Positions 32,509-61,091 of a DNA stretch of 64,000 nucleotides are shown here, in pieces. This DNA comes from an uncultured Pseudomonadota bacterium (GTDB lineage Bacteria; Pseudomonadota; Gammaproteobacteria; Steroidobacterales; Steroidobacteraceae). The translations under genes and the position numbers were made by a program. Below the pieces are notes generated by a model that made no database searches, had not been told where the DNA came from, and saw only the letters and a list, made by a program, of their open reading frames with translations. The DNA lies in assembly GCA_937920275.1 (NCBI GenBank), contig CALGVD010000029.1, positions 17,834-81,833 on the forward strand, written 5' to 3'. Position 1 is the first letter of the stretch. Each line of letters begins with the position of its first letter.

Positions 32509-32509
32509 G

Positions 32510-33960: not shown

Positions 33961-36533
33961 CGCAGATTGTAGTCGGATGACATCGCCGCGCCATAGGCGC
34001 CCGCCGTCGCGACGAGGATGACATCACCTTCGCCGGTCGATACCGGCAGCAGGCGTCCGTGGCCGAGCACATCGCCGGTCTCGCAGATCGGCCCGACGAC
34101 ATCCACCTCACGCATCGGCCCTTCGCCCAGGCGACTGAGGTTCACGATGTCGTGGTGAGCGCCATAAAGCGCCGGTCGGATCAACGAATTCATACCGGTC
34201 GCGATGCCGACATAGGCGCTCGCGCCTTTCCTCTTCAACTGCGTCACGCGTGCGAGCAGCACGCCCGCCTCCGCCACCACGAAGCGCCCAGGCTCGAGCC
34301 ATAACTCGCGTCCGCCGAGACCGGGAAGCAGTGCCTCGAGCGACGCATCAAGGGCACCGAGATCGATCGCTGCCCGCCCCTCACGATCCGGTACGCCGAG
34401 CCCACCGCCCAGATCGAGGACCCGCGCCTCGGGAAAGAATGCACAGACCTCCAGCAGCAGCCGTCCGACGCTCGCCCAATGCGCTGCATCGAGGATCCCG
34501 CTGCCTGCATGCACATGCAGCCCGGTGATACGCACACCGTGCGCCTTCGCAAGCGACGCAGAACGCTCGAGATCATCGACCGCGATGCCGAACTTCGACG
34601 CCGTTCCACCGGTGCGCACATGCGCATGATGGCCACGCCCGACGCCGGGATCGATCCGCAGGAACAACGACCGACCCGAGAAGATCGAACCCCATTCGAG
34701 CAGAGGATGCAGATTGTCGAGCGTGAGTTGCACCCCGAGCCCGAGCGCCCACTCGTACTCATGCCGCGGCGCGAAGTTGGGGGTGAAGAGGATCTGCGCC
34801 GGCGACAGATCCGGGAGCACGGTGAGCGCCTGCTCGATCTCACCGCGTGACACACATTCGATGCCGAAACCCGCCGCGTGGACCGTGCGCAACACAGCCG
34901 GGTGCGGATTCGCCTTCATGGCATAAGAGAGGTGCGTAACGGATCGCAGGGATCGGAGCGCCGCGCAACGCGCGGCCACGGTCGCGGTGTCGTAGACATA
35001 GGCGGCATCGCGGTCAGCCATCAGCGCCAGCAGCTCCGGTCGGCGACGATGCCACCAGGCAGGCGCGCTGTTCGGGGCGGTGACCGAGCCCTCGGTCAGT
35101 GACTGCCAAGACCTGCCGAGCACACGATCGTCAGGCGCCGTCGCGATCAGCAGTTCGTGCAGGTCAGCGACCAAGCGCGCACCTTGAGCCTCATCGACCA
35201 CGAAGGTGAGATTGAGGTCATTGGCCGCCTGGCTTACGAGGTGGATCCGTTGCTCAGCGAAAAGCTCCAGAGCGCCGCCCAAGCCATGCAGGATGCCGCG
35301 GATGTTCCGCCCGACCAAGCTGACCGATGCGCAGGGACCGATGATCTGCGCGCGGCAGTGCGGCAGCAGATCCCGCTGCAGCGCGTCGAGCACGGCATCC
35401 CCCAAAGAATTCGCTTGCGGATCGAGCGACACGGTGACGTTGGTCTCGCTGGTGGAGATCAGATCGACCGACAAGCCGTGCTGCTTGAAGACCTGGAACG
35501 CATCGGCCAGGAAGCCCACCTGATGCCACATCCCCGGGCTGTCCATCGAGACGAGCGTGACGCCGTTCTTCGCGCAGATGGCCTTGACTTGGCCGCCCTC
35601 TCCCGCCGGGGAGTCACTGATGCGGGTGCCGCCGAGCGCCGGCGCCTGGGTCGCGTAGATGGACAACGGTATGCCGTATTGACGCACCGGCAGCAGGCAT
35701 CGCGGATGCAGCACTTTCGCGCCGGCGGTGGCGATCTCCTGCGCCTCGTCGTAGGACAGCTCCAACAATTGCCGAGCAGCCGGCGTGGCGCGTGGATTGG
35801 CGCTGAACATCCCGGGGACATCGGTCCAGATCTCCAGCTCCCGAGCCTGAAGGATCGCTGCGAAATAGGCCGCTGAGGTATCCGAGCCACCGCGACCGAG
35901 CAGCACGGTGTCACCGGCGGCGTCACCGGCGATGAAGCCCTGCGTGACGACGACCGACCCCAAGGCGCAAAGCCGCGCCCGTAGCGCGGGATCGGGACGG
36001 AACTCGCAGGTGGCGGAGAGGTACGCGGCCTGTTCGGTCGCGGCCTCTCGCCGCACCGCGCGCAGCACCTCGCGTGCATCGAGCCATACCGCTGGCAGAC
36101 CCTGGGCACGCAGATAGGCCTCGCCCAAGGCAGTCGCCAGCAACTCTCCGTACGCGATCACCGCTGCTCGATCGCGCGCGGTCGGCGCCCCGCGCTCGGC
36201 GATCGCCTCAAGGCGTGATCGTAACGACGAGAACTGCGCCTCGAACGACGGGATCTCACGAAGACCGAGATCGAGGGCGAGGGAAAGATGACGCTCGCGC
36301 ACGGCGAGCAGGTCGGCGGACGCGCCCTGATGGATCGCCGCGGTGAACGCGCGCTCCAGCAGGTCGGTGACCCCGCTGAGCGCCGAATGAACGATGAGGA
36401 CAGGACTGCCGTCGTCGCTACGCTCTCGGACCGTGGCGGCGATGTTGCGCCAATTGGCGAGGCTCGAGACGCTGGTGCCGCCGAACTTAAGGACCCGCCA
36501 CTCGGTCGACCCGCGGTGATCCGCGCTCGCCAT
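33933..36533 (-). CDS. Bifunctional aspartate kinase/diaminopimelate decarboxylase
   Basis: N-terminal AK (VLKFGGTSVSSLANWRNIAATV; TVLLGRGGSDTSAAYFAAIL), ACT-like middle, C-terminal LysA (YAMKANPHPAVLRTVHAAGFGIECVSRGEIEQAL; HVHAGSGI; GPICETGDVLG). Confidence 0.95.
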   Translation of the reverse strand: MASADHRGSTEWRVLKFGGTSVSSLANWRNIAATVRERSDDGSPVLIVHSALSGVTDLLERAFTAAIHQGASADLLAVRERHLSLALDLGLREIPSFEAQFSSLRSRLEAIAERGAPTARDRAAVIAYGELLATALGEAYLRAQGLPAVWLDAREVLRAVRREAATEQAAYLSATCEFRPDPALRARLCALGSVVVTQGFIAGDAAGDTVLLGRGGSDTSAAYFAAILQARELEIWTDVPGMFSANPRATPAARQLLELSYDEAQEIATAGAKVLHPRCLLPVRQYGIPLSIYATQAPALGGTRISDSPAGEGGQVKAICAKNGVTLVSMDSPGMWHQVGFLADAFQVFKQHGLSVDLISTSETNVTVSLDPQANSLGDAVLDALQRDLLPHCRAQIIGPCASVSLVGRNIRGILHGLGGALELFAEQRIHLVSQAANDLNLTFVVDEAQGARLVADLHELLIATAPDDRVLGRSWQSLTEGSVTAPNSAPAWWHRRRPELLALMADRDAAYVYDTATVAARCAALRSLRSVTHLSYAMKANPHPAVLRTVHAAGFGIECVSRGEIEQALTVLPDLSPAQILFTPNFAPRHEYEWALGLGVQLTLDNLHPLLEWGSIFSGRSLFLRIDPGVGRGHHAHVRTGGTASKFGIAVDDLERSASLAKAHGVRITGLHVHAGSGILDAAHWASVGRLLLEVCAFFPEARVLDLGGGLGVPDREGRAAIDLGALDASLEALLPGLGGRELWLEPGRFVVAEAGVLLARVTQLKRKGASAYVGIATGMNSLIRPALYGAHHDIVNLSRLGEGPMREVDVVGPICETGDVLGHGRLLPVSTGEGDVILVATAGAYGAAMSSDYNLRQPAPEFAL

Positions 36534-41102: not shown

Positions 41103-41957
41103 TCAATCGCAGAGCGCCTCACGCACGGCACGGACCTCATCGGCCGATCGGAGGAACACGATATCCCGCTCGCGACCGCGCATGCCGAGCCGCGCTGCCG
41201 AGGACGAGGCCGTCAGGCGTCGGGTCAGCTCCACGGGGGAATCCTTGAACGCATTGAGTAATTGGCAGACGAAGAGCAGGTCCATGAGCGGCGACCCCTC
41301 GGCACCCCGCTGCTCGACCGACTCGTGATCACAGACCGCATCGATGAACTCGGGATCCAGACCCCAACCTTGCAGGAGCCGGCGCGTCGCCGGAACCCGC
41401 CACTCGTTCAACAGGATCTCGAACCGCATCGGGTCCTGCAGCACCGCCGGCATCGTGGCGGCTTTGGCCGTCACCCAGATGTGTCCCACCGTGTGGAGCA
41501 AGCCAGCCGTGTTCGCCCTCTCCCGCGGCACCCCAGCGAATTGGGTGGCCATCGCCCGGGCGATCGCAGCCAACCCGACGCTGCGTTGCCAAAGGGCGGT
41601 CATCCTGCCGTGCACCGCCTGGTATCGGGGTGCCTCTCGGACCTCGTGCAAGGCATAGACCAGCGAGAGCCGACGGACGGTATCGAAACCGAGTCGCCGG
41701 ACCGCCACGGCAAGATCGGCGGTCGGATCGACGGACGGGTTGTAATCGACGGAGTTGGCCGTGCGCAGCAGCAGCCCTGCGAGCGTCGGATCGGTCGCCG
41801 CCAAACGCGCGACCTCAGGTCCGGTCGCCGACAGGTCGGCGAGGCGGCGGACGATCCGAAGTGCGACTTCCGGCATACCCGGGATGGACAGTTCCTCGCG
41901 CAGGAACTCCACCTTCAAGCGTTGCTGGAAATCGCCGCTCATGATGGGTGACGACAA
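41103..41957 (-). CDS. HDOD domain-containing protein
   Basis: LSIPGMPEVALRIVRRLADLSATGPEVARLAATDPTLAGLLLRTANSVDYNP; VAVRRLGFDTVRRLSLVYAL. Confidence 0.88.
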   Translation of the reverse strand: MSSPIMSGDFQQRLKVEFLREELSIPGMPEVALRIVRRLADLSATGPEVARLAATDPTLAGLLLRTANSVDYNPSVDPTADLAVAVRRLGFDTVRRLSLVYALHEVREAPRYQAVHGRMTALWQRSVGLAAIARAMATQFAGVPRERANTAGLLHTVGHIWVTAKAATMPAVLQDPMRFEILLNEWRVPATRRLLQGWGLDPEFIDAVCDHESVEQRGAEGSPLMDLLFVCQLLNAFKDSPVELTRRLTASSSAARLGMRGRERDIVFLRSADEVRAVREALCD

Positions 41958-41958
41958 G

Positions 41959-42378
41959 TTACGCCACTTCGCGCGCGCGGCTGCCGTGCAGACGCCGCAG
42001 CAACGAGGCTTCCTCTCGGCTCATGCCGCAGGATGCAGCAAGCTCTGCCTCCGTCGCTCCGGAACTCGCCATCCGGATCGCCATCTCGAACCCCTGTGTC
42101 TGCGGACGCGGCGCTGGGGGGATATAGCGTGGTTCAGCGGCCTGCTTCTCCTCGTAGCTGCGCAGCAAGGTCCCGATACGCCGTGCTTCGGCCTCGCTGG
42201 CCGAGACTTGGTATTTTTGGCGTTGCAGCTCGGCGTCGAGACGGGCGAGTTCAGCGGCGGTACCGCGCCAGAAAACCGCCCACGCGCCGATCCACAGAAA
42301 AGCGAGCAGGATGGCCGTGTGGATGGCCGCAAAAGCGTAAGTCTGCAGGTCGTCGGTCAACAAGGCAGCCATGTTCAC
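41959..42378 (-). CDS. DUF2802 family protein, flagellar-locus associated
   Basis: N-terminal TM segment, C-terminal HTH-like MAIRMASSGATEAELAASCGMSREEASLLRRLH; position after motD. Confidence 0.75.
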   Translation of the reverse strand: MNMAALLTDDLQTYAFAAIHTAILLAFLWIGAWAVFWRGTAAELARLDAELQRQKYQVSASEAEARRIGTLLRSYEEKQAAEPRYIPPAPRPQTQGFEMAIRMASSGATEAELAASCGMSREEASLLRRLHGSRAREVA

Positions 42379-42462
42379 TCCCTAAAACAGATCTGAAGAT
42401 ATGGGTCACTCGGCAGCCATGCAGCGTCAGAACTTCGGCGCGGCATGCCTGGGGAGTGACTT

Positions 42463-42477
42463 GCAGATTCCGTGCCA
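42463..42477 (-). promoter_or_regulatory. Sigma-54 promoter candidate upstream of DUF2802-HDOD
   Basis: Minus strand TGGCACG-GAAT-CTGC; GG/GC separated by 10 nt; intergenic between motD and the DUF2802 gene. Confidence 0.72.
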
Positions 42478-42484
42478 CCAGAGA

Positions 42485-43330
42485 TCAAGGCCGTTCCCTC
42501 GGACCGACCGAGGGATCACCCCGGTTCATGCCGTAGGGCCCCTCAGCGACCTCGTCCTGACCGAGGATCGCGAGCAATACCCTTCGATTCGCGCTTCGAC
42601 CGGCCTCGGAGTCGTTCGGTTGCAGCGGACGATGCTCGCCGAAACCGAGCACCGCGAAACGTGCTGGGTCGAGGCCGCTGGCGACCAGCACCCTGACCAC
42701 CGCACCGGCCCTGGCTGCCGAAAGATCCCAGTTGTCCCGATAAAGACCGCCCTGGATCGGGACATCGTCCGTGTGGCCCTCGACCCGTATCGGATTCCCG
42801 AAACCGATCAATGTTTCAGCGAGCTGGGACAGCACGCGCTCGGCGGCCGGATTGAGGGTCGCCGAGCCGCTGGCGAACAGCACATCGTTCCGGATCTCCA
42901 CCTCCACCCACATCGGGTGCTGCCGGATGGTGACTTGGTCGCTCATCACGAGCGGCGCCGTCGCCCGAGCGATCCGCATCGCGATCCGTCCGGCATTCAG
43001 CTCCTCGAGCGAGGGAAGATCGGGCGAAGCGTTGGGGGTCTGGCTCAGCGGAATGGCTCCGCCAGGCTCGATCGTCGCGAGCGGGATCGGTCCAGAGATC
43101 GCGGAGCGCGGCAGTACCCCGGAGTCCGAATCAGGGCCCGCGCCGTTGAACGCCACCGACAGCGCATCCGCGACGACCCGATACTTGCCGGTGTTCAGCG
43201 AGGAGATGGCATACATGACGACGAAGAACGCCAAGAGTAGCGTCATCAGATCGGCGTAGGGGATGGCCCAGGCCTCATGGTTGAGTCGTTCCTCGGTCGG
43301 TCGCCGTCGTCGTCGGGGTTTGCGGATCAC
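42485..43330 (-). CDS. motD: Flagellar motor protein MotD (MotB family, OmpA-like)
   Basis: WAIPYADLMTLLLAFFVVMYAISSLNTGKYRVVADAL; GHTDDVPIQGGLYRDNWDLSAARA. Confidence 0.92.
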   Translation of the reverse strand: MIRKPRRRRRPTEERLNHEAWAIPYADLMTLLLAFFVVMYAISSLNTGKYRVVADALSVAFNGAGPDSDSGVLPRSAISGPIPLATIEPGGAIPLSQTPNASPDLPSLEELNAGRIAMRIARATAPLVMSDQVTIRQHPMWVEVEIRNDVLFASGSATLNPAAERVLSQLAETLIGFGNPIRVEGHTDDVPIQGGLYRDNWDLSAARAGAVVRVLVASGLDPARFAVLGFGEHRPLQPNDSEAGRSANRRVLLAILGQDEVAEGPYGMNRGDPSVGPRERP

Positions 43331-43340
43331 GCTGCAGCGC

Positions 43341-44096
43341 TCATGTCGACAGATACCCTTGTAGGCGTGCCTCCAGAACGCGCGGGTTCTCGCCTTGGGC
43401 GACCGCTGCCAATCCGTCGATGATCATGATGCGTCGACGCGTCTCCAGCTGGATGAGTGACCGTAGTTTTCCGGCCGTCGGCAGAAACAACAGGTTCGCG
43501 AATCCGATCCCGTACACCGTGGCGGTGAACGCAGCCGCGATCCCCTGACCCAGCAGCCGAGGATCTTCCAGGTTCTGCATCACCGTCATCAGGCCGAGCA
43601 CGGCACCGATGATCCCCAGAGTCGGCGCATAGACACCCATCGACTCGAACACCCGGGCCGCTGCCATCTCAGCGTCCTCACGGGCGTCGAGTTCGATCTC
43701 CATGATCGAGCGCAGTCGCTCGGGATCGGTCCCATCGACCACCAACTGCAGACCGCGACGCATGAACGGATCCTCCAGTTGGTCGATCTCCGGCTCCAGC
43801 CCCAGCAACCCGCTGCGGCGAGTGGTACGGCTCAATCCGACCAGCCTCGCGATGATGGATTCGTCAGCACTCGACGGTGGGTGGACCATCCACGACGACA
43901 TCGCGATGGCCCTGCGAAGGGTCGGTTCGGGCGTCTGCACCAGGACAGCGGCGACGGTGCCAAGCAGGACGATCATCAACGCCGCGATCGACAGCAACGC
44001 GGCGAGCGCAGCACCTTTCAGGATCGACCCGACCACCACTGAGACGACCGCAAGCAGCAGTCCCAGCAGCGTCACCCGATCGAGGTCACGCCTCAC
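43341..44096 (-). CDS. motC: Flagellar motor protein MotC (MotA family)
   Basis: MRRDLDRVTLLGLLLAVVSVVVGSILKG; FESMGVYAPTLGIIGAVLGLMTVMQNLEDPRLLGQGIAAAFTATVYGIGFANLLFLP. Confidence 0.92.
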   Translation of the reverse strand: MRRDLDRVTLLGLLLAVVSVVVGSILKGAALAALLSIAALMIVLLGTVAAVLVQTPEPTLRRAIAMSSWMVHPPSSADESIIARLVGLSRTTRRSGLLGLEPEIDQLEDPFMRRGLQLVVDGTDPERLRSIMEIELDAREDAEMAAARVFESMGVYAPTLGIIGAVLGLMTVMQNLEDPRLLGQGIAAAFTATVYGIGFANLLFLPTAGKLRSLIQLETRRRIMIIDGLAAVAQGENPRVLEARLQGYLST

Positions 44097-44823
44097 GGGT
44101 TGCGGGCATCTGATCCCGCCAATCTGCGAGCCGCGCCTTCAATCGTGCGACGGCTTGACCGTGAAGTTGCGAGACCCGTGATTCCGTCACGCCCATGACG
44201 CGACCGATCTCCTTGAGGTTCAGTTCCTCTTGGTAATAAAGCGCCATGAGCAACCGCTCCCGCTCGGGAAGGCCGGCGATCTCACGGACCAGCGCCGCGC
44301 GGAATCCCAGATCGGCCACTTGTCTGAATGGATCGGGACCGTGGTCCGGCGCGTCGAGGTTGTCCATCTCTTCCAAGCTCGCCAGCTGACAAGCGACGGA
44401 GTCTTGGACGATGTGGTGATACTCGTCGAGCTGGATCCCGAGTCGGGCAGCGATGTCGCCCGGTCGGGCCTCATTACCGGTCTCTCGCTCGATCTCGCGG
44501 ATCGCCTGCGCGACCTCGCGCGAACGGCGATGCACCGATCGAGGCGCCCAATCGAGCTTGCGCAAGGCGTCGATCATCGACCCGCGTATACGGATCCCGG
44601 CGAACGTCTCGAAGGTGGCCCCCTTTCCGTCCGTGTAGTGCGCCGCGGCCTCGAGCAAGCCGAGCATGCCCGCTTGGATCAGGTCATCGACCTCGACGGA
44701 GGCTGGCAGCCTTGCACAGAGGTGGTAAGCGATACGTTTGACGAGCTCGGCATGCCGTCGTACGAGCAAGTCCGCCTCACGCGCTCGGTCGAAGCCCGCT
44801 GGCGCGATCACCGCCGCGTTCAC
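44086..44823 (-). CDS. fliA: RNA polymerase sigma-28 factor FliA
   Basis: GTG start overlapping flhG stop; VDDLIQAGMLGLLEAAAHY; IRIRGSMIDALRKLDWAPRSVHRRSREVAQAI; ALYYQEELNLKEIGRVMGVTESRVSQLHGQAVARLK. Confidence 0.94.
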   Translation of the reverse strand: MNAAVIAPAGFDRAREADLLVRRHAELVKRIAYHLCARLPASVEVDDLIQAGMLGLLEAAAHYTDGKGATFETFAGIRIRGSMIDALRKLDWAPRSVHRRSREVAQAIREIERETGNEARPGDIAARLGIQLDEYHHIVQDSVACQLASLEEMDNLDAPDHGPDPFRQVADLGFRAALVREIAGLPERERLLMALYYQEELNLKEIGRVMGVTESRVSQLHGQAVARLKARLADWRDQMPATREA

Positions 44824-45680
44824 CGCACCACCTGCAACCGTGGCGCAGGGCGCGACACGCGCTCGGAGAAGAACCCGATGTTGCCCCGCCCCTCCGGCGT
44901 TTCCCAAGACTTGATGGTGCCCGCGAGGCGAGAGATCGCCTGCGCAGCATTGGAACTGGGGAACGCCTCGACCACCGGCCGCTGCTCACGGACCGCTCGC
45001 CGCAACAGATCATCCGCCGGGATATCCGCAGAGTGTTCGAGTGTCACATCGAGAAAGCGGCTGGTCACGCGCTGTAGCGCCGCGAACAACCGCGCGCCGG
45101 CCAACGGCCCCTGGGTCATGTTGGTGACCACGCGGAACTGTCGGACGCCGTGGCTGCGGCTGAGTATCTTGATCACCGCATAGGCGTCCGTGACCGAGGC
45201 GGGATCCTCGCAGACCACCACCAACACATGTTGCGCAGCCTGCACCAATTGCAGGACACCGTTCGAGATGCCCGCGGCGGTGTCGACCATGAGCAGATCG
45301 AGGTCCGCGGTCAGATCGCTGAAAGCCCTGACCAAGCCGAGATGCCCGTTGTCATCGAGACCCGCAAGGGGTGTCATGCCGGATGCACCCGCAACCATGG
45401 AAAGACCTGGCCGCACGGGCGTGAGCACCTCATCGAGACTCAGGCGTCCGAGCACCATGTCCGCGAGGGTGCGCCTTGGTGTGATGCCGAGCAGGACATC
45501 GGCGTTGGCCAAGCCCACATCCCCATCCAGCAGAACGACACGCCGACCCGCAGCGGCGCTGGCGATCGCGAGGTTGATGCTGAGCGTCGATTTACCGACG
45601 CCGCCCTTCCCGCCGCTGACGGCGACGACCTGCACTGGGTCGCGGCGCAGGATCCGTCCGGAGATATCAGGAGGCGACAT
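44820..45680 (-). CDS. flhG: MinD-like ATPase FlhG/FleN
   Basis: VQVVAVSGGKGGVGKSTLSINLAIASAAAGRRVVLLDGDVGLANADVLLGI. Confidence 0.93.
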   Translation of the reverse strand: MSPPDISGRILRRDPVQVVAVSGGKGGVGKSTLSINLAIASAAAGRRVVLLDGDVGLANADVLLGITPRRTLADMVLGRLSLDEVLTPVRPGLSMVAGASGMTPLAGLDDNGHLGLVRAFSDLTADLDLLMVDTAAGISNGVLQLVQAAQHVLVVVCEDPASVTDAYAVIKILSRSHGVRQFRVVTNMTQGPLAGARLFAALQRVTSRFLDVTLEHSADIPADDLLRRAVREQRPVVEAFPSSNAAQAISRLAGTIKSWETPEGRGNIGFFSERVSRPAPRLQVVR

Positions 45681-46893
45681 GCACACGACCCTCCAACCGG
45701 CTGACCAGCAGGTCCTCATCCGCCGTGTTTCCGTTGCGCTCCTGCAGCGCGACCGCCAAGGCGATCAATTCATCAGATCGCGCGGGGCGCAGGTCATCGG
45801 GCAACCTCGTGCCATCGGTCACATAGGCGAGCGGCAGACCGGCCGTGATCACCGCTGAGAGCAGACCGCCGAGGCTTGCCGCCTCGTCGAGTCGGGTGGC
45901 GATACAGGCCGTCACGCCTGCGCGTGCATAGCGCAGGGCGAGCTGGCGCGCTGCGGTGGCTTGTAGAGTCGCTGGCAGGACCGCAGCGATCGATCCGGCG
46001 CTGCGCAGGATGCTGAGATTCCGCTCTTCGAGACCTGGATCATCGCTGCGATCATCGCTGCGCAGCCCGACCGCACCGGTATCCACCAAGACGAGGCGCT
46101 GCTCACCGAGCCGCGCGAGCAGCGCAGGAAGCGCCTCGATCTCTTCGACCTGATACGTTGGGATGCCCAACAGCCGCCCGAGGCGGGCCAACTGCTCGAA
46201 CGCACCGAACCGGGGATCGCCGGCACTCACCAACACCGCGCCGTTCGGGCCGTTCCGCAGCACCCATCGCGCCGCGATGCCCGCCATTGCGCTGGACTTG
46301 CCGGATCCGGGACTGCCGATCAACGACAGCACCCCCCCTTGGGTCGTCCAACGATCGTCGATCGTCTTCAGTCGGTCGCAGAGCGCCGCGAGACCCTGCT
46401 GCCGTGCTCGCTCGAGTTCGTCGTCCGAAGTGACGCCCTCAAGCAGTGCGGCCCCGAGTTCGCGATCAAGTCCGAGCGATGCGAACTCGCGCATCAGAGC
46501 AGCCTTCACCGGGGCGCGACGCGTAAGGTCGTTCCACGCGAGCGCCGCCAGTTGGGTCTCGAGCAGATGCCGCAAGGACCTCAACTCACTGTCGATGGCG
46601 GGACTGCCTGCGACGGCTGGCGGAAGAACGCCTGGCGGGATACCGACTGGCGAGACGACGGCGGGTCGACTGGCCGATCGCGTCGGCATCGCGACCGTAT
46701 CCGCGCCGACCGCGCGTCTGGCCTCCGTCAATATCTCGACGTTGGCCATCGCCTCGGGGTCTGTGGCGACCGTCAACTCCACGACACCGGCGGTCCGGCG
46801 TGTCCACAGGATCAAGGCGTCCGGCCCATGCTCCGCACGCACTTTACGCAGTGCGGTACGCATGTCCGGCGCGGTGTATTTATGCATTTTCAT
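45667..46893 (-). CDS. flhF: Flagellar biosynthesis protein FlhF, divergent GTPase motifs
   Basis: MKMHKYTAPDMRTALRKVRAEHGPDALIL; LSLIGSPGSGKSSAMAGIAARW; position between flhA and flhG. Confidence 0.9.
   Translation of the reverse strand: MKMHKYTAPDMRTALRKVRAEHGPDALILWTRRTAGVVELTVATDPEAMANVEILTEARRAVGADTVAMPTRSASRPAVVSPVGIPPGVLPPAVAGSPAIDSELRSLRHLLETQLAALAWNDLTRRAPVKAALMREFASLGLDRELGAALLEGVTSDDELERARQQGLAALCDRLKTIDDRWTTQGGVLSLIGSPGSGKSSAMAGIAARWVLRNGPNGAVLVSAGDPRFGAFEQLARLGRLLGIPTYQVEEIEALPALLARLGEQRLVLVDTGAVGLRSDDRSDDPGLEERNLSILRSAGSIAAVLPATLQATAARQLALRYARAGVTACIATRLDEAASLGGLLSAVITAGLPLAYVTDGTRLPDDLRPARSDELIALAVALQERNGNTADEDLLVSRLEGRVHVAS
46038..46061. repeat. Two tandem 12-bp units (GATCATCGCTGC) inside flhF
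   Basis: gatcatcgctgc gatcatcgctgc, giving RSDDRSDD in FlhF. Confidence 0.9.
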
Positions 46894-46903
46894 CGCGTTT
46901 TCC

Positions 46904-48991
46904 TTAGTTCCCGATGGTGCTTACCAGGCGCACCCGGCGGCTGTCCGGTATCTCGTTCCAGGCGAGCACATGCATCTGCGGCACGGTCGCCCTGAGGAAC
47001 CTTGCAAGAATCGGGCGCAGCGCCGGCGGCACGAGCAGAACGGCCGGTTGCCCCGCCACTTCCTGGCGACGCGCTGCCTCGACGAGGTGGCCTTGGAGCC
47101 TCTCGGCCAGCCCCGGCTCGAGACCCGGCGAAGCCCCCGCGGTGCCGACGGAGTTGCCCAGCATCTGTTCGATACCCGGGTCGAGGGTGATCACCGGGAG
47201 CTCCTGTGAGATCCCGACGATGTCCTGCACGATCTGCCTTGAGAGCGCGATACGGACCTGCGCGACCAAGGCCTGGGGGTCCTGTATCCGGCCGGCATGC
47301 TCGGCCAGCGCCTCGAGCACACTGCGCAGGTTACGGACCGGGACCCGCTCAGCGAGCAAGGCCTGCAGGACCTTGACGACCACACCCACCGACAGGATTT
47401 TCGGCACGAGGTCCTCGACCAACTTGGGCGCGGTCTTGGCCAAGTTCGTGAGGAGATTCTGAGTCTCTTCATGCCCGAGGATCTCGTGGGCATGTTGCGC
47501 GATCAGTTGACTGAGGTGCGTCGCCACGACGGTGCTCGCATCGACCACGGTGTAGCCAAGCGACTGCGCGTGCTCGCGCTGCCCGGATTCGATCCAGACC
47601 GCCTCCATGCCGAACGCCGGATCACGGGTCGCCATGCCCTGCAGCGGACCGAACACCCGACCCGGATTGATCGCCATCTCGCGCTCGGGGTACACGCTCC
47701 CCTCGCCGACCGGTACACCAGAGAGCTGGATACGATAGGCGTTCGGCGACAGATCGAGATTGTCACGGATGTGGACGGCGGGGACGAGGAAGCCCAGTTC
47801 CTGCGACACCTTCAGCCGGACGCCGCGGATACGGGCGAGCAGATCACCGCCCTGCCCTTTATCGACCAGCGGCACCAGTCTGTAGCCGACCTCCAGACCG
47901 ACCAGATCGACGGGTTGCATATCATCCCAACTGAGTTCGCGGGACTCGCCGGCGGAGGCCGTCGGGACGACCGTCGCGGGTACCGCGGCTTCTCGGGTTC
48001 GGCGCCGGTGCATGAACCACGCGCTGACTCCCGCCAAACCGGCCATGGAGAGGAAAACGAAGTTCGGCATGCCTGGCACCACACCGAGCAGCGCCAGCAC
48101 GGCGGCGGCGACGCCGAGGAGCCGAGGCTCAGCGACCAGTTGCCGGGCCACCTCGCCGCCCATGTCTTGATCGCGTGACATGCGGGTCACGATCACGGCG
48201 ACCGCCGTCGCGAGCATCAACGCAGGGATCTGTGCCACCAGCCCGTCGCCGATGGTCAGCAAGACATAGATCTTGGCGGCCTCTGCGAACGACAGGTCGT
48301 GCATCATCCTCCCGATCGCCAGACCACCGATCACATTGATCATCAGGATGAGGATGCCGGCGGTGGCGTCGCCGCGTACGAACTTGCTCGCACCGTCCAT
48401 CGAACCGTAGAAATCGGCCTCCGAGCGGACCTCGACACGGCGCGTCCTGGCCTCTTCCTGATTGATCAGGCCGGCGTTCAGGTCTGCATCGATCGCCATC
48501 TGTTTACCCGGCATCGCATCGAGGGTGAAACGCGCACTGACCTCGGAGATACGACCGGCACCTTTGGTGATGACCACGAAGTTGATGATCGTGAGGATGA
48601 TGAAGACCACGATGCCGACGGCATAGTTGCCGCCGATGACGAAATCACCGAAGGCCTCGATGACCTGACCGGCTGCCGCCGTGCCGTTGTGCCCGTGCAT
48701 CAGCACCACCCGGGTGGAGGCGACGTTCAACGCCAACCGGAGCAATGTGGCGATCAGCAATACGGTGGGGAATATCGCGAAGTCGAGCGGCTTGCGGACC
48801 GTGAACACCGCGACCACGATCATCAGCGACAGGGCGATGTTGAAGGTGAAGAGCAGATCGAGTGCGAGCGCCGGCAACGGCAGGACCACCATCGCGAGCA
48901 AGCCCAGCACGCCGATCGGGATGCCGATCCCGCTCAACATCAATTGGCGAAGCGGAAGCACCGTCGATGGCGCCCCTGGCGGCGATATCAT
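46904..48991 (-). CDS. flhA: Flagellar biosynthesis protein FlhA
   Basis: RKPLDFAIFPTVLLIATLLRLALNVASTRVVL; ARFTLDAMPGKQMAIDADLNAGLI; GYTVVDASTVVATHLSQLI. Confidence 0.96.
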   Translation of the reverse strand: MISPPGAPSTVLPLRQLMLSGIGIPIGVLGLLAMVVLPLPALALDLLFTFNIALSLMIVVAVFTVRKPLDFAIFPTVLLIATLLRLALNVASTRVVLMHGHNGTAAAGQVIEAFGDFVIGGNYAVGIVVFIILTIINFVVITKGAGRISEVSARFTLDAMPGKQMAIDADLNAGLINQEEARTRRVEVRSEADFYGSMDGASKFVRGDATAGILILMINVIGGLAIGRMMHDLSFAEAAKIYVLLTIGDGLVAQIPALMLATAVAVIVTRMSRDQDMGGEVARQLVAEPRLLGVAAAVLALLGVVPGMPNFVFLSMAGLAGVSAWFMHRRRTREAAVPATVVPTASAGESRELSWDDMQPVDLVGLEVGYRLVPLVDKGQGGDLLARIRGVRLKVSQELGFLVPAVHIRDNLDLSPNAYRIQLSGVPVGEGSVYPEREMAINPGRVFGPLQGMATRDPAFGMEAVWIESGQREHAQSLGYTVVDASTVVATHLSQLIAQHAHEILGHEETQNLLTNLAKTAPKLVEDLVPKILSVGVVVKVLQALLAERVPVRNLRSVLEALAEHAGRIQDPQALVAQVRIALSRQIVQDIVGISQELPVITLDPGIEQMLGNSVGTAGASPGLEPGLAERLQGHLVEAARRQEVAGQPAVLLVPPALRPILARFLRATVPQMHVLAWNEIPDSRRVRLVSTIGN

Positions 48992-50133
48992 GGTGCCGCA
49001 CCGGTGGGGGCCGCGATGTGCTCGATCGAGTCATCGAAAATCGGTGGCGCAGGCGGTGCCTCGCCGCGTCGCCGGGCGACCTTGATGTGCCAGACATAAG
49101 TCAGCACCTGGGCCACCGCCACGAAGAGCGTGTGCGGGACCTGACGACCGATATCCACATATCGGAAGAGCGCTCTTGCCAAGGGCGGCGCTGAGACCAT
49201 GGTCACCCCATGCTCGCGGGCGACCTCGCGGATCCGCGCCGCGACCTCGTCCGAACCCTTGGCGAGGACGACGGGTGCGAAGTCGCGCTTCTCGTCGTAA
49301 CGCAATGCGACAGCGAAGTGCGTGGGATTCGTGATGACCACATCGGCCTGCGGGACATCCTGCAGCATCCGGCGCTTCGCCAAAGTCTGCTGCATGCTGC
49401 GTATCCGGGAACGGGTCTCGGGGGAACCCTCCGACTCCTTCATCTCCTCGCGGATCTGCTGCATGCTCATCCGTAATTCCTTGGTGTGCTGCCAGAGCTG
49501 GAAAGGCGCATCGAACGCTGCGATGATCGCGAGACCTGCCGACATCGCCAGCAGCGCATACAACGCGATCCGTCCTGACTCGATGATCGCGGGACCGAGC
49601 GGCTGGGTGGCAAGCGCCCGCACTTCACCGAGCTGGGATCGGATGACCAGCACCGCGATCCCGGCGACCAACGCGAACTTCGCCAATGATTTGCAGAGCT
49701 CCACGAGGCTTCTCAAGGAGAACATCCTGCCGAAACCCTTGACGGGATCGAGCCGCTCCGGCTTGAGCGCCAGAGCCTCGGTGCTGAAGTTCCAGCCACC
49801 GATGAGCGCCGGCGATGCGAGTGCGGCGACGAGCGTCGCCGCCAACAGCGGCATTATCCCGAGCAGTGCCAGTCCACTGGATGCACCGAGACTGCGGAGC
49901 ATGATGTCGTCGTGGATGAGATCGCTGCCGCGGACGGAGAGACTCGACGCGAGCATCTCCATCAGCGAGCCTGCGGCGTCCGCTCCGAACAGCAGCAACG
50001 CCCCGGTCGCCGCAAGCGTGACGGCTGCCGCACCCAGATCGACCGACCGAGGGACCTGACCCTTCTTCCTTGCGTCCTCGAGCTTCTTGGCTGTCGGGGC
50101 CTCTGTACGTTCTTGAGCGTCTTCACTGGCCAT
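48988..50133 (-). CDS. flhB: Flagellar biosynthesis protein FlhB
   Basis: QERTEAPTAKKLEDARKKGQVPRS; DVVITNPTHFAVALRYDEKRDFAPVVLAKGSDEVAARIREVA (NPTH autocleavage motif). Confidence 0.96.
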   Translation of the reverse strand: MASEDAQERTEAPTAKKLEDARKKGQVPRSVDLGAAAVTLAATGALLLFGADAAGSLMEMLASSLSVRGSDLIHDDIMLRSLGASSGLALLGIMPLLAATLVAALASPALIGGWNFSTEALALKPERLDPVKGFGRMFSLRSLVELCKSLAKFALVAGIAVLVIRSQLGEVRALATQPLGPAIIESGRIALYALLAMSAGLAIIAAFDAPFQLWQHTKELRMSMQQIREEMKESEGSPETRSRIRSMQQTLAKRRMLQDVPQADVVITNPTHFAVALRYDEKRDFAPVVLAKGSDEVAARIREVAREHGVTMVSAPPLARALFRYVDIGRQVPHTLFVAVAQVLTYVWHIKVARRRGEAPPAPPIFDDSIEHIAAPTGAAP

Positions 50134-50143
50134 GCGGATCCCC

Positions 50144-50926
50144 TCAACGCCCCGGCGTCTGCAGTGCGGCGGCCTCGGCGAGGACCTGCTGCAGCAGCGA
50201 GATGAATCCCTGCTGAACGCCCGGCAGCCCGATCTGCAGCACGACCAGACCGAACACGATCGTCACAGGGAATCCGACCGCGAAGATGTTCAAGGTGGGT
50301 GCAGCGCGGCTGATCAACCCGAACCCGATGTTGGCGATCAACAATGCCGTGAGCCCGGGCAGCGCGATCGACAACGCACCGGCGAAGAGGAACGAGCCGG
50401 TCGAGACGAGGCGCAGCATCCCGTCCGCGCCCAGCCCTTGCTGTCCGACCGGCAGTGTCCGAAATCCGTCGACCAGCACATGGATGATCGCGAGATGTCC
50501 ATCCAGTGCGAAAAAGGTCATCACCATCAAGATCACATAGAACTGACCGATGGCCGCCGTGGACGCGCCGCGCAACGGATCCACGTTGAACGCGAACGAC
50601 AGACCCATCGTGTTGGCGAGCAGCTGTCCCGCCAGCCCGACCGCGTCGAACACCAGTTGCAGGATGAACCCGATCGCGACGCCGATCAGTATCTGTTGCG
50701 CGATGACCAGCAGGCCGGGAAGCGAGAACGGTTCGATATCCGGTGCAGGCGGCAGCAAGGGCACCACCAACCACGCGATCGCGCCTGCCAGTACGATCCG
50801 CAATCGCGCCGGGACGAAGCCCGCGCCGAACGCGGGCGCCACCATCAGGCACGCGGCGATCCGGAAGAACGGCCAGATCCAATCGCCGATCCATCCCTGC
50901 AGTTGACCTGCTGCGATGTTCAGCAC
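50144..50926 (-). CDS. fliR: Flagellar biosynthetic protein FliR
   Basis: FFRIAACLMVAPAFGAGFVPARLRIVLAGAIAWLV; position between fliQ and flhB. Confidence 0.94.
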   Translation of the reverse strand: MLNIAAGQLQGWIGDWIWPFFRIAACLMVAPAFGAGFVPARLRIVLAGAIAWLVVPLLPPAPDIEPFSLPGLLVIAQQILIGVAIGFILQLVFDAVGLAGQLLANTMGLSFAFNVDPLRGASTAAIGQFYVILMVMTFFALDGHLAIIHVLVDGFRTLPVGQQGLGADGMLRLVSTGSFLFAGALSIALPGLTALLIANIGFGLISRAAPTLNIFAVGFPVTIVFGLVVLQIGLPGVQQGFISLLQQVLAEAAALQTPGR

Positions 50927-50930
50927 GGGA

Positions 50931-51200
50931 TCACCGGATCATCGACGGGATGCTCGCGATGAGCGTCCGTGTGTAGTTGACGATGACTTTGAGCATCCAT
51001 GGACCGGCCACCACGATGGTCACCGCCATACCGATCAATTTGGGGATGAAAGAGAGCGTCATCTCGTTGATCTGGGTCGCCGCCTGGAACACGCCGACCA
51101 GCAGCCCGATCCCTAGCGCCGTGAGCAGCAACGGCATCGCGAGCAGCAGCATCGTGCCGAGCGCCCCGCTGCCGAGCTGCATGAGCGCCTCCGGGGTCAT
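50931..51200 (-). CDS. fliQ: Flagellar biosynthetic protein FliQ
   Basis: 89 aa, two [36 protein letters not shown]. Confidence 0.95.
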
Positions 51201-51970
51201 CGGATGAAGCTCCCCGCCAAGGTACCCATCACCAGCGTCCAGCCATCGACGAGCACGAACAGCATCAATTTGAAGGGTAGCGAGATCAGGACCGGCGAAA
51301 GCATCATCATGCCCATCGACATGAGTACGCTCGCCACCACAAGATCGATGATCACGAACGGAATGAAGAGCAGGAATCCGATCAGGAACGCCGTCTTGAG
51401 CTCGCTGGTGACGAATGCCGGGACAAGGATCGATAACGGGACGTCGGCGGGCGAATTGAAGCCCTGCCCACCTGAGATCCCGACGAAGGTCGCGATATCA
51501 GCCTCGCGGGTCTGCTCCAGCATGAACGCCTTGAGGGGGATGACGGCACGGTCGAGCGCCGCGACAGTGTCGATGCTGCCGTTCGAATACGGGACGATGG
51601 CCTCGGTGTTGATGCGCTCGAAGGTCGGCGCCATCACGAAGAAGGTCAGGAACAGCGCGAGACCGAGCAATACCTGGTTGGGCGGGGTCTGCCCGGCACC
51701 GATCGCCTGCCGCAGGATCCCCAGCACGATGATGATGCGCGTGAACGCCGTCATCATCAGGACGACGGCGGGCAGCAGTGTCAGGGCGGTCATCAACAAC
51801 AGCACCTGCAGCGTCAGGCTGTAGGTCTGTCCGCCGCTGCTCGCCTGCTTCACAGTCATCGCCGGCAACCCGATGCTGATGCCTTGTTCTGCCGCTTGCG
51901 CAAGATCGGGCGCGATCGCCCACGCGAGCGCCGCGAAGACCAACGCCAGCAGCCGTCTGTGGATGCTCAT
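51197..51970 (-). CDS. fliP: Flagellar biosynthetic protein FliP
   Basis: [97 protein letters not shown]. Confidence 0.96.
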
Positions 51971-52455
51971 CGCCCGAACCCCTTGCCCAGCAATTCGGCG
52001 AACCGATAGGGCAACGGCGTGGCGGGCACCTGATCGAGCGCGGAAGACGACACGCTGGACGCGACCGATGGGTCGCTCTTGTGCAGCATCACCACCCTCC
52101 CGTCACCGACACCCAAGACCAAGCGGGCTCCGTCCACCTCGATGATCACGGCCCGCTCCTTCGAGCCGAGGGCCACTTCGTCCACGACCCGCAACGCACC
52201 GCCCCGTCCACGCGGCAGGACGCGCAACCGGCGGGCCAGCCAACCGAGCAACAGGATCGCCCCGACCACCAATGCAAGCGATAGCAACACCTGCAGAGCA
52301 CCGCTGCCGGAGTTGAGAGGCTCCCTGACAGACGCGACGGAGGGCGCCCCGAATCGCGCACCACCCGCACTCGTGACGCTGGGTGCGCTCCACATCGCAA
52401 CGGTCCCAATGGCCGCGAGAACTCCGGCATTGAGGGTCTTCAAGGGCGGTCTCAT
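51967..52455 (-). CDS. fliO: Flagellar biosynthetic protein FliO
   Basis: Single TM plus basic domain [50 protein letters not shown]. Confidence 0.87.
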
Positions 52456-52814
52456 TTCAGCTTTCGGATCCGTTCAGCCGGACTCACGACATCGGTGAGA
52501 CGGATACCGAACTTGTCGTTGACCACGACCACCTCACCGTGCGCGACCAATGTCCCATTGACGAAGACATCGAGGAGTTCCCCGGCGGCGCGGTCGAGTT
52601 CCACGACTGAGCCCTGATTGAGCTGCAGAAGGTTCCGGATCGGGATCCGGGTGCGACCGACCTCCATCGACAGCGTCACGGGCACCTCGAGGATGACCTC
52701 GAGATTGACGTCGCCTGCGGCGGGGTGACTCGCTGCGTCTGACGGTACCGGGTCGGCGGACAGTCGTTCGAAGGATGCTAGGTCGGCACCCGTGTTGTCA
52801 GGCGTCTGGTTCAT
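52452..52814 (-). CDS. fliN: Flagellar motor switch protein FliN
   Basis: LEVPVTLSMEVGRTRIPIRNLLQLNQGSVVELDRAAGELLDVFVNGTLVAHGEVVVVNDKFGIRLTDVVSPAERI. Confidence 0.96.
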   Translation of the reverse strand: MNQTPDNTGADLASFERLSADPVPSDAASHPAAGDVNLEVILEVPVTLSMEVGRTRIPIRNLLQLNQGSVVELDRAAGELLDVFVNGTLVAHGEVVVVNDKFGIRLTDVVSPAERIRKLK

Positions 52815-52827
52815 GGCGGCTCCGGTA

Positions 52828-53835
52828 TCAATTTCGGGTGGGAGAGGACGAGGGGTCGATCGAGCGGCCGCGCAACAGCCGTTCCTCGACCTTCACGGAC
52901 TGTTGTCCGCGCGATACGCCGAACTGACCTCGCAGCACCGGCACATCTTCAGCAAAGACGGTCACGCGACCCGTGAAATCACAGGGGATGATGTCGCCAG
53001 GTCGGAAGTCCAGAAGTTCCGACAGTCGGACCTGTGAGCGACCGACCACCGTGGTGAGTTCCACCTCGGCGTCCTCGATCTCCTCACGGAGGCTGCTGAT
53101 CCAACGCTCGGCGTCCTGCGGCCGTTGGTCTTGCACGCTCGCGCTCAGGATCTCGCGCAACGGTTCGACCGTGGCGAACGGCACCACGATCTGCATGCAA
53201 TTGCCCACGCCATCGATATCGATCTCGAAGTCGGTGACCAGCAACGCCTCGTTGGCCGACAGCACATTGGCGAACTGCGGGTTGCATTCGCTCGCCACGC
53301 ATTCGATCTTGAGCGGGCTCACCTTCGACCACGCAGTGGCCAGATCAGCACAGGCGGCATCGCGCAGAATCCCGACCAGACGATCTTCGACGGGTGTGAA
53401 CTCACGGTTCTCGATCCGGGCGATGCGTCCCTTGCCGCCGAAGAAGTTCTCGACGATCGCGCTGACGAGGCCGGGCGGCAGGACGAGAAGGGCCAGCCCG
53501 TGCAATGGGGTAAGACCGAGTACATTGATGCTGCTCGGCATCGGTAGCGAGGCGAGATAGTCGGCGAACCTCATGGTGCGCGACGACACCACTGAAAGGC
53601 CGACCGGGCGTCGCAGGACGCTGCTGAGGCTGGTGCGATACAACGGACCGAAGCGTTGGTGGATCAGTTCGAGCGTCGGCAGACGACCGCGGACGACACG
53701 GGCTTCATGACCGAGCTCGTAGCGGCGCACCTCACCGCGCGCCGCAGCGCCATCAGTGCTCACCCGCCCTTCGCTCATGCCGGTCAGCAGCGCATCGACC
53801 TCGTCTTGGTTCAGGACTGGTTCGCTGGCCATCAC
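52828..53835 (-). CDS. fliM: Flagellar motor switch protein FliM
   Basis: EPVLNQDEVDALLTGMSEG; LEIDIDGVGNCMQIVVPFATVEPLREIL-type FliM core; FRPGDIIPCDF. Confidence 0.95.
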   Translation of the reverse strand: MMASEPVLNQDEVDALLTGMSEGRVSTDGAAARGEVRRYELGHEARVVRGRLPTLELIHQRFGPLYRTSLSSVLRRPVGLSVVSSRTMRFADYLASLPMPSSINVLGLTPLHGLALLVLPPGLVSAIVENFFGGKGRIARIENREFTPVEDRLVGILRDAACADLATAWSKVSPLKIECVASECNPQFANVLSANEALLVTDFEIDIDGVGNCMQIVVPFATVEPLREILSASVQDQRPQDAERWISSLREEIEDAEVELTTVVGRSQVRLSELLDFRPGDIIPCDFTGRVTVFAEDVPVLRGQFGVSRGQQSVKVEERLLRGRSIDPSSSPTRN

Positions 53836-57763: not shown

Positions 57764-58455
57764 ATCTGACCTGCCGATCGATCGATCGGCTGCTCCCCCA
57801 AGACGGTGGCGACTGCTGCCGCAACCCGGCTCTCGAACTGCGCATCGATCCGCGAGGCGTCCGCCTCGACGACGCAGCCGCCTCGCGTGATCCTTGGGTC
57901 TGCCACGACCTGGACTTCACACGGCTCGCTATCCGGATGCAGACTCTCCCGAAGTACAGAGGCATCGGCAGGAGCGAGTCGGATGCGCACCACGCGTACC
58001 GCGCTCGGCAAAGAATCGATGCACTCCCGGATGATGCTCAACACCTGTCGTGGATCGATCGACAGTTCACGCCGTGCGAGCTGGGCACCGACGACAAGCG
58101 CGAGATTCGCCATCTCCGCGGCGGTCTCGTCATCGTACCGCTCGAGGGGGGCGGCGATCTGCTGCACCAACCCATCAAGGAGCTGCCGACGCGCATCCAA
58201 GTCAGCCAGTCGCTGGGCGACCTCCATCGCGGCGGCCGCAAGTCCCTCACTTCGGCCTCTTTGAAAGCCTGCTTCGCGGGCAGCGCGTTCCTCATCGTCC
58301 AGTGCAGACGCTGAGGCTTGCTTGCCGCGGAAAGTGATCAGCGGACCGACCACCGCAGGGGGCGTCCAAGATGCGCCTTCCCCGAGGAGATCACGACGCC
58401 GGACAAGCGGCGGATCTTCGTTGCTGCGACCACGGGTGTCAGACATAGTCATCAC
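57760..58455 (-). CDS. fliH: Flagellar assembly protein FliH
   Basis: FliH-like AALVVGAQLARRELSIDPRQVLSIIRECIDSLPSAVR-type region; GCVVEADASRIDAQFESRVAAAV; between fliG and fliI. Confidence 0.88.
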   Translation of the reverse strand: MMTMSDTRGRSNEDPPLVRRRDLLGEGASWTPPAVVGPLITFRGKQASASALDDEERAAREAGFQRGRSEGLAAAAMEVAQRLADLDARRQLLDGLVQQIAAPLERYDDETAAEMANLALVVGAQLARRELSIDPRQVLSIIRECIDSLPSAVRVVRIRLAPADASVLRESLHPDSEPCEVQVVADPRITRGGCVVEADASRIDAQFESRVAAAVATVLGEQPIDRSAGQI

Positions 58456-59458
58456 CCGCTGCGGGCCCGAGGGTTATCGTGCCCTCTTCCGCGAGGCGTC
58501 TCGCCGTGCCGGTGATCTCCTTCTGCGCCGCCTCGACCTCGACCAGACGGACCGGACCGCGCGCCTCAAGATCATCGCGTAGGGTCTCAGCGGCACGCTG
58601 TGACATGTTCTTGAAGATCTTCTCTTTCAATGCGTCGTCGGTCGCCTTGAGCGCGATCAGCAGCATGTCGGTCGGGACCTGTCGCAGCAATTCCTGCATC
58701 GCCCGATCCTCAAGACCGATCAGATCGTCGAAGGTGTACATCAGGTCCTGTATCGTCGTGCCCATCACTTCGTCGGCCACGGAGATCTGATTGATGAGCG
58801 CCGATTGGGCCTTCGGACCGAGCGAGTTCAATATCTCTGCGACGGCTTTGGGTCCGCCGGACCCGGCAGCTTGGACGCCACCCGAACCTTGAAACTGACG
58901 CTCCATGACATGATGAAGCTCTTGCAGGGCTGCAGGTTGAACGCCGTCCAACGTCGCGATCCGCAACATCAGATCGCCGTGGGTGGGCTCCGGCAGCAGC
59001 GCGAGGATCTTCCCGGTCTTCTCGGGCTCGAGGTACGACAAGACCAAAGCGATGATCTGTGGGTGCTCGTTGCGGATGAGGTCGACCACAGTCCGCGGCT
59101 CCATCCACTTGAGCGCCTCGAGACCCTTGCTCGCGCGTCCGAGCTGGATCTGATCGAGCACGCCAGAAGCCTGGTCCTCACCCAATGCATTGATCAGCGC
59201 TTTACGGACGAAGTCGGTCGTTCCGGCGCCTAGCGAGGTGTGACGATCAGCCTCGACCACGAAGCTTCCGACGACCTCACTGATCTCATCACGGGTGACA
59301 TCGATGATCTGCGTCATCGCGGTGCCGACCCGCTGCACATCCTGTGCACTCATGTGTCGCAGGACTTCTGCAGCCTCTTTCTCACCGAGCGTCAGCAGGA
59401 AGATGGCGGCCCGATCGACACCGCTCCTGGATGAGTCGTCCCTGAGTGCATCAACCAT
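58439..59458 (-). CDS. fliG: Flagellar motor switch protein FliG
   Basis: VDRAAIFLLTLGEKEAAEVLRHMSAQDVQRVGTAM; NEHPQIIALVLSYLEPEKTGKILALLPE; MFTFDDLIGLEDRAMQELLRQV-like. Confidence 0.96.
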   Translation of the reverse strand: MVDALRDDSSRSGVDRAAIFLLTLGEKEAAEVLRHMSAQDVQRVGTAMTQIIDVTRDEISEVVGSFVVEADRHTSLGAGTTDFVRKALINALGEDQASGVLDQIQLGRASKGLEALKWMEPRTVVDLIRNEHPQIIALVLSYLEPEKTGKILALLPEPTHGDLMLRIATLDGVQPAALQELHHVMERQFQGSGGVQAAGSGGPKAVAEILNSLGPKAQSALINQISVADEVMGTTIQDLMYTFDDLIGLEDRAMQELLRQVPTDMLLIALKATDDALKEKIFKNMSQRAAETLRDDLEARGPVRLVEVEAAQKEITGTARRLAEEGTITLGPAAGDDYV

Positions 59459-61091
59459 TGGTCGACACCCACTTCTTCACGACCTGTGCAACCCGCGCCG
59501 GATCCTCTCCGACCAAGGCGCGTGCCTGCGCGATCTGATCCTCATAGGCTGTCGCCGACATGTTCCCTTCTCCTGACGCGTAGCCGGCGGAGGCCATGGT
59601 CGCCCGTCCGGCGCCGTCGGACATCGGCGGGAACCCGCTGTCTGCAGAGGAGACACCCGGTAATGCCAGAGGGGAAGGCAACGGTGACGAGGCGGCCAGT
59701 GCGCCGGCGAACTGCCGGGCGAGCGGTCGCAGCACCGTGAACACGAGTGCCAGCAGCACGATGAGTCCGATCAGCATCTTGGCGGCATCCCGCGCCCACG
59801 GCTGCTCCCATAACGGCAGGGACTCGAGTTCACCTGCTGCGACCCGCGGGTCACCGCTCCACGCACTGTTGATCACATTGACGCTGTCGCCGCGTTCCTC
59901 ATCGAAACCCACGGCATCCTTCACCAGCGTCGTGACTCGGGTGATCTGTTCCGGGGTCAGGGCGACCTCGGTCAACTTGCCGTCCTTGTCCTTGACCTGC
60001 ACGTTGTCGACGAGCACCGCGACCGAGATCCGCTTCAAGCGTCCGGAAGGCTGCCGGGTATAGGCTATGGTGCGATCGATCTCGTAGTTGCGGGTGCTCT
60101 GCGTGGAGCCGTCCTGCTTGGACTCACCCGCCGGCGCAGCATTCGGCGCACGGCCCTGCGGCTGGTTGCTCAACGACCCCGGAACGCCACCTGCCCCGCC
60201 ACCCCCGGCACGACGATCCTCAGAGACCTGTTCGCTTCTCACGATCTGGCTGTCAGGTGAATACTGTTCGCGGGCTTCCTCGACCGCGCTCATGTCAAAC
60301 TGCGCACTGACCTCCGCCCGGACCCGTCCGACACCGACGAGCGGTGCGATCAATGCCTCGACACGCTGCGAGTAGCTTTCCTCGAACTGTCGCGCGAACT
60401 CAAGCTGTTGGTCACGCGCTGCGAACTCATCTTGGCCCTGCGGCGATGACAATAACCGTCCTTGCTGGTCCACCACCGTGACCTGCGAAGCATCGATATC
60501 GGGCAGGCTTGAAGCCACCAGGTTCACGATCGCCGTGACCTGCTCCGAGGCGAGCCTTCGACCGGGCTTCATCTGCAGGAAGACGCTGGCACTGCCGGGA
60601 CTGCGGTCTCTTACGAAGGTCGAATTCCGCGCCACGGCGATGTGGACCCGCGCAGCGGCGACCTGTTGGAGGCTCGAAATGGTCCGTGCGAGCTCCTGCT
60701 CGAGCGCGTGCTGGTACCGAGCAGTCTCCATGAACTGTGAGACACCCAGACCCCCTTCTTTCGAGAGGCTCGCGAAACCACCGGACTGCAATACCCCCTG
60801 GCCCGCCAGCATCATCCGCGCCTCATTGATCCTCTCGACCGGCACCGAGATGCCGCCGGTACCGTTCTCCATCCGATATTTGATCCCTGCGGAGGACAAA
60901 GATTGGGTGATCGCCGCCGCATCCTCATCGGCGAGATTGGAGTACAGCAGCCCATAGGTGGGCCCCTGCGACCAGAGCATGATGCCGACACCCGCGGCGA
61001 CTGCTGCCGCCAGACCGACAAGCATCATGACCGGCTTGAAGCCGGCCCCGAGACTGGAAAGGGCGTCAGCGCCCGCTGCCTGCGTGGCCAT
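59451..61091 (-). CDS. fliF: Flagellar MS-ring protein FliF
   Basis: YGLLYSNLADEDAAAITQSLSSAGIKYRMENGTGGISVPVERINEARMMLAGQG; ARVHIAVARNSTFVRDRSPGSASVFLQMKPGRRL. Confidence 0.96.
   Translation of the reverse strand: MATQAAGADALSSLGAGFKPVMMLVGLAAAVAAGVGIMLWSQGPTYGLLYSNLADEDAAAITQSLSSAGIKYRMENGTGGISVPVERINEARMMLAGQGVLQSGGFASLSKEGGLGVSQFMETARYQHALEQELARTISSLQQVAAARVHIAVARNSTFVRDRSPGSASVFLQMKPGRRLASEQVTAIVNLVASSLPDIDASQVTVVDQQGRLLSSPQGQDEFAARDQQLEFARQFEESYSQRVEALIAPLVGVGRVRAEVSAQFDMSAVEEAREQYSPDSQIVRSEQVSEDRRAGGGGAGGVPGSLSNQPQGRAPNAAPAGESKQDGSTQSTRNYEIDRTIAYTRQPSGRLKRISVAVLVDNVQVKDKDGKLTEVALTPEQITRVTTLVKDAVGFDEERGDSVNVINSAWSGDPRVAAGELESLPLWEQPWARDAAKMLIGLIVLLALVFTVLRPLARQFAGALAASSPLPSPLALPGVSSADSGFPPMSDGAGRATMASAGYASGEGNMSATAYEDQIAQARALVGEDPARVAQVVKKWVSTNG

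Follow-up and report, generated by a model that had tools for sequence, protein, structure and literature searches.

Flagella and chemotaxis are commonly regarded as a single package. In the Pseudomonas-type operon, the genes run in the order flhA-flhF-flhG-fliA-cheYZAB-motCD-parC, and this order was found to hold for Pseudomonas and for other gammaproteobacteria (loci L013-L015, L021, and L035). The DUF2802 membrane proteins are FipA, a partner of FlhF that is required for polar flagellum formation, occurs only alongside FlhF and FlhG, and has three invariant residues (PMC11620751). In Brucella, flagellar genes are present without chemotaxis genes, and the bacteria are reported to be non-motile (PMC12213604).

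We analyzed a 64-kb stretch of DNA (the window) on contig C29 of genome G000, a 2.71-Mb draft in 137 contigs that is 99.75% complete. Gene calls were made from ORFs and Pfam, plus homology across relatives (Table 1). The results showed that the minus strand carries, in this order, fliF, fliG, fliH, fliI, fliK, fliL, fliM, fliN, fliO, fliP, fliQ, fliR, flhB, flhA, flhF, flhG, fliA, motC, motD, the DUF2802 gene, an HDOD gene, and a YkuD gene. The flanks flhB-flhA-flhF-flhG-fliA, motC-motD, and fipA (DUF2802) are shared with the Pseudomonas-type operon, and the order flhF, flhG, fliA, motC, motD, fipA is kept, but cheYZAB is not found between fliA and motCD, all che genes and parC are absent, and fliA overlaps motC. 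The original prediction had placed the fliA stop at 44086 and the motC start at 44096, with an overlap of 11 bp, and the ORF coordinates confirmed this; it was also right that motD is directly followed by the DUF2802 gene, as 106 bp without a che gene lie between the two. Neither this gap nor the fliA/motC junction contained a che gene by ORFs and Pfam. The motD product has the plug motif AIPYADLMTLLLAFFVVMYA with the Asp present, and no second stator besides motC/motD was found within the window; the accessory nature that the original prediction gave to this stator is therefore only putative.

Table 1. Features of the flagellar operon in the window
Feature	Position	Strand	Basis or remark
HDOD-domain protein	41103..41957	-	Pfam HDOD 1.7e-25; closes the flagellar/che cluster in family relatives
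fipA (DUF2802), predicted FlhF-interacting polar determinant	41959..42378	-	Pfam DUF2802 5.3e-12
motD-fipA gap, 106 bp	42379..42484		without che genes
motD, MotB-type stator subunit	42485..43330	-	Pfam MotB_plug + OmpA
motC, MotA-type stator subunit	43341..44096	-	Pfam MotA_ExbB 4.4e-31; GTG start 44096
fliA/motC overlap, 11 bp	44086..44096	-	slot of cheY-cheZ in che+ relatives
fliA, sigma-28 factor	44086..44907	-	Pfam Sigma70_r2/r3/r4; stop 44086
flhG (fleN)	44820..45719	-	Pfam ParA/CbiA; homology to other flhG
flhF, SRP-type GTPase	45667..46893	-	Pfam SRP54 7.1e-18
flhA, export gate	46904..48991	-	Pfam FHIPEP 2.8e-262
flhB	48988..50133	-	Pfam Bac_export_2
fliR	50144..50926	-	position + homology across relatives
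fliP	51197..51970	-	homology across relatives
fliN, switch protein	52452..52814	-	homology across relatives
fliM, switch protein	52828..53835	-	Pfam FliM 1.7e-50; sole FliM of the genome
FliM N-terminal CheY-docking peptide VLNQDEVDALL	53785..53817	-	
fliG, switch/torque protein	58439..59458	-	translation + homology
fliF, MS ring	59451..61091	-	translation + homology

Two further genes of the window were noted. At 61661-62911 lies a FleQ/FleR-like sigma-54 activator that lacks a receiver domain; two such matches occur at this position in the congeners G012 and G018 and one in the clade of the window. At 33933-36533, aspartokinase and diaminopimelate decarboxylase are fused into one 866-aa protein.

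The window DUF2802 protein consists of a single DUF2802 domain, in which the G-x15-E-x2-L triad is kept at matching spacing, and a hydrophobic N-terminal stretch (TYAFAAIHTAILLAFLWIGAWAVFW, read by eye), a putative transmembrane segment. FlhF and FlhG are encoded in the same operon. The protein thus shares with the described FipA (PMC11620751) the combination of membrane segment and DUF2802, the triad, and a site adjoining the flhF operon, and it differs in that the adjacent che genes are missing. Judged by these sequence features, the gene is fipA, and it is the role of FipA in flagellar placement, not in chemotaxis, that accounts for its retention.

The possibility of a false assembly join was checked against the congener G008. 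The right part of the window aligned with contig C34 of this genome without a break over 25.3 kb at 85.8% identity, and the fliA/motC offset was identical in the two independently assembled genomes. Thus, since the alignment is unbroken and the overlap is the same, the fliA/motC join is real and not an assembly artefact. The same gene order was present in the congeners G015, G018, G010, G007, and G006, and the presence of the same junction across the genus upheld the earlier view that the tight overlap marks a settled arrangement. The distance from the fliA stop to the motC match was 951-1451 bp in che+ loci, 412-413 bp in loci with cheY alone, -10 to +53 bp in che-less type-A and family loci (with G061 as an outlier at 215 bp), and -21 to +276 bp in the divergent type-B loci. 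The HDOD gene is conserved after fipA or cheB in the relatives, and in the window it directly follows fipA.

The type-B loci belong to a second, very divergent flagellar system that was observed in at least 11 members of the genus (G001, G003, G006, G007, G008, G009, G010, G011, G019, G020, and G022; loci L125-L135), in several of them alongside type A. This system is likewise without che genes, and decay is seen in the N-terminal peptide of its FliM. G001 and G007 have FlhA copies that are 99% identical, which hints at transfer.

In the che+ loci of the family (G026, G062, G063, G067, G073, G094, and G178), the order was fliA-cheY-cheZ-motC-motD-fipA-...-cheA-...-cheW-...-cheB-HDOD, and no ParC-like match was found in them. 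As these loci have the same operon and fall in the same flagellar clade as the window, they provide its immediate reference state. The Pseudomonas order, which the original prediction had taken as reference, proved wrong for this family, since its che+ members have only cheY-cheZ between fliA and motC, with cheA-cheW-cheB following DUF2802. The claim that cheYZAB and parA/parP/cheW are absent while the flanks are kept therefore stood with regard to the che genes, whereas the 'missing' ParA/ParP had been measured against an order that does not apply here. Compared with the che+ family loci, two blocks appear to have been removed from the window, one (cheY-cheZ) between fliA and motC and the other (cheA-cheW-cheB) downstream of fipA, so that the HDOD gene directly follows fipA. 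In G120 and G140, cheY was present without a detected cheZ. In the outgroup loci L012-L015, L017, L021, L035, and L051, cheY lay between fliA and motC, or directly after fliA where the contig ends early. The alternative that the che genes were ancestrally located elsewhere was thereby contradicted, as cheY(Z) occupies precisely this position in relatives and outgroups.

In a quick tree built from a concatenation of nine flagellar proteins (82 rows), the genus loci of the window type formed a single clade with a support of 100, and G012 and G018 came out as sister to the small genomes; 17 forks of this tree are open, and one long-branch join, of G064 with L016, is suspect. On this tree, in-operon cheY required at least 8 changes, and the genome-level presence of a non-Chp system at least 11 (CheW-based states), these counts carrying no direction. 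A count of 14 changes based on the CheA state was discarded, because H-kinase_dim is unreliable as a CheA marker, and was replaced by the CheW-based count. The outgroups argue for loss as the direction of change, though some genomes (G012, G061, G066, G099, and G151) have che clusters at other sites.

Domain searches of the whole G000 genome returned zero matches to CheW, MCPsignal, and H-kinase_dim (CheA dimerisation) under conditions where the positive controls were matched in E. coli and others. As H-kinase_dim missed a CheA-like gene of G066 that was found by homology, absence was judged on CheW. All ten receiver domains of G000 reside in proteins with DNA-binding outputs of the OmpR, NarL/FixJ, or NtrC type and none in a stand-alone receiver protein; thus, the genome has no CheY. 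No PilZ domain was found in G000, so there is no candidate for a c-di-GMP brake of the YcgR/FlgZ type, and a Pil-Chp-like system, although present in most of the family, was missing as well. The draft assembly of G000 is accordingly free of CheA, CheW, MCP, and CheY. Since this assembly is fragmented and lacks about 6.3 kb of flagellar sequence, absences at a single locus need support from relatives. Of the fates considered earlier for the che genes, namely relocation, replacement, or loss, the genome-wide lack of CheW, MCPsignal, H-kinase_dim, stand-alone receiver, and PilZ supports loss.

FlhA was found in 20 of the 24 genus members, and in 17 of these 20 flagellated genomes the search for the CheW domain returned no match at all. 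The exceptions were G018, with three CheW matches and a 1979-aa CheA frame, which is the Pil-Chp pattern; G021, with one CheW match (E = 6.5e-4); and G012, with an MCP-cheY-cheZ-cheA-cheY-cheW cluster on a separate contig. Given this cluster, the che-less state does not extend to every member of the genus. Exactly three CheW matches, consistent with Pil-Chp alone, were found in at least 22 flagellated genomes from other genera of the family; this count is approximate, as the Pil-Chp call rests on frame length and contig ends truncate some of the long CheA frames. Loss of chemotaxis is common to nearly the whole genus and has probably been repeated several times in the family.

G012 (L122 7863-9870, and L136) has no fliM at the usual place and carries a fliM-fliN-cheY block after motD. 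Its FliM falls outside the FliM clade of the genus, which suggests that chemotaxis was re-acquired together with its own switch protein. In G066, G061, G099, and G151 (L292, L293, L295, and L296), fliG-fliM-fliN and che genes form one block off the main operon, with cheA and cheZ and in most also cheY. An apparent loss of FliM in G032, G061, G066, G099, G106, G119, and G151 was rejected, since FliM is relocated in these genomes.

The flagellar genes themselves are under purifying selection, as dN/dS against G008 was 0.036-0.158 across 14 of them (fliM 0.036, fipA 0.036, fliG 0.052, and motC 0.089) and 0.10-0.28 against G015, which is more distant. The window holds export, C-ring, and stator genes, and contigs C38 and C76 of G000 hold rod/hook-type genes. 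Flagellin was not found in the G000 draft, but its matching place falls in an assembly gap: the right end of the window (64000) corresponds to position 25244 of G008 contig C34, and C38 of G000 to positions 31541-36291, which leaves 6.3 kb unassembled between them. In G008, these 6.3 kb hold two flagellin-family genes and a flgK-type match, and the G000 draft is thus without the flgK, flgL, fliC region. A 'loss' of flagellin in G000 was rejected on these grounds, since flagellin is encoded at the corresponding position in congeners and the gap lies at contig ends.

The possibility exists that the che genes reside at another site of the genome or on a replicon that was not binned, as relocation does occur in the family, both in the blocks off the main operon and in the separate che contig of G012, and the G000 assembly is fragmented. 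The complete lack of CheW, MCP, and CheA in a genome of this completeness, and of CheW in 16 further, independently assembled flagellated congeners, makes this very improbable; moreover, fliM moved along in the relocated cases, whereas in the window it is in place. It is also conceivable that the flagellum itself is non-functional and on its way out, given that FlhA is absent in 4 of the 24 congeners and that the draft yielded no flagellin. However, the genes for motor and export are intact and show dN/dS of 0.04-0.16, and the flagellin of the congeners maps to the unassembled 6.3 kb, so that we regard decay in progress as the least probable explanation of all.

The switch offers a third alternative. 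In E. coli, FliM binds CheY-P via an N-terminal peptide. The N terminus of the window FliM, VLNQDEVDALL, fits the pattern LxQxE[IV]DALL, although G000, which has no stand-alone receiver protein, lacks a CheY partner for it. Among the seven che-less type-A FliMs of the genus, the peptide was 86% identical and the rest of FliM 52%, and LNQxEVDAL was invariant (Q and D each in 7/7); this comparison was post hoc and covers a small sample of 11 residues in seven sequences. The ratio of peptide to rest divergence was 0.30 in this set, which resembles the che+ sets (0.42 in family members and 0.19 in outgroups), compared with 0.63 in che-less members of this flagellar clade outside that set; in type B, the other che-less flagellum of the genus, the ratio was 1.36, the Q is found in 0/5, and the motif is lost. 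A 12-residue version of the peptide ranked 6th of 322 FliM windows by conservation. Within one genus, two che-less flagella thus contrast clearly, type A keeping the peptide and type B having let it decay. Such conservation would be odd if nothing bound FliM, and it may mean that the peptide has a new ligand, serves a role independent of Che, or is decaying slowly. It could be that the place of CheY has been taken by an unrecognised regulator, which binds the peptide and governs switching or braking, in which case the peptide would be selected because a non-Che protein had taken over the switch input, and the flagellum would be steered or braked without chemosensory proteins. We consider this unlikely, though less so than relocation or decay, as G000 has no stand-alone receiver domain, PilZ, or Che protein and thus offers no candidate regulator, and the peptide might matter for folding or assembly.

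Taken together, the window most probably represents a selected and apparently working polar-flagellum operon whose host has lost chemotaxis outright and swims undirected. Under outright loss, a family ancestor with the order fliA-cheY-cheZ-motC-motD-fipA-...-cheA-cheW-cheB-HDOD would have been deprived of cheYZ and of the cheA-cheW-cheB block, which would have brought fliA to overlap motC and the HDOD gene to adjoin fipA. FlhF, FlhG, and FipA are retained for polar placement. The motor would still be built and rotate. Without CheY-P, a motor keeps to its default direction, and swimming would therefore be undirected, with changes of direction left to Brownian rotation or spontaneous switching. 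Motility would then serve dispersal, surface encounter, or nutrient flux, and not gradient climbing.

The family keeps the flagellar operon and repeatedly loses the steering genes, with similarly tight seams, and che+ sister lineages are at hand for comparison. Comparison within the family opens the question of what an unsteered polar flagellum is for, and of which parts of the switch, for instance the FliM docking peptide, are kept or decay once CheY is gone. Flagella without chemotaxis are already known from Brucella, beyond which we found little literature on flagellated bacteria described as lacking chemotaxis genes. The window shares with Brucella that flagellar genes are kept and chemotaxis genes are absent (PMC12213604), but it encodes a polar FlhF/FlhG/FipA flagellum of a gammaproteobacterium, and the losses recur across one family. 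What is new is that the flagellum is polar and belongs to a gammaproteobacterium, that one operon lost these genes repeatedly within a family, that chemotaxis is absent from nearly the whole genus, and that the docking peptide is retained.
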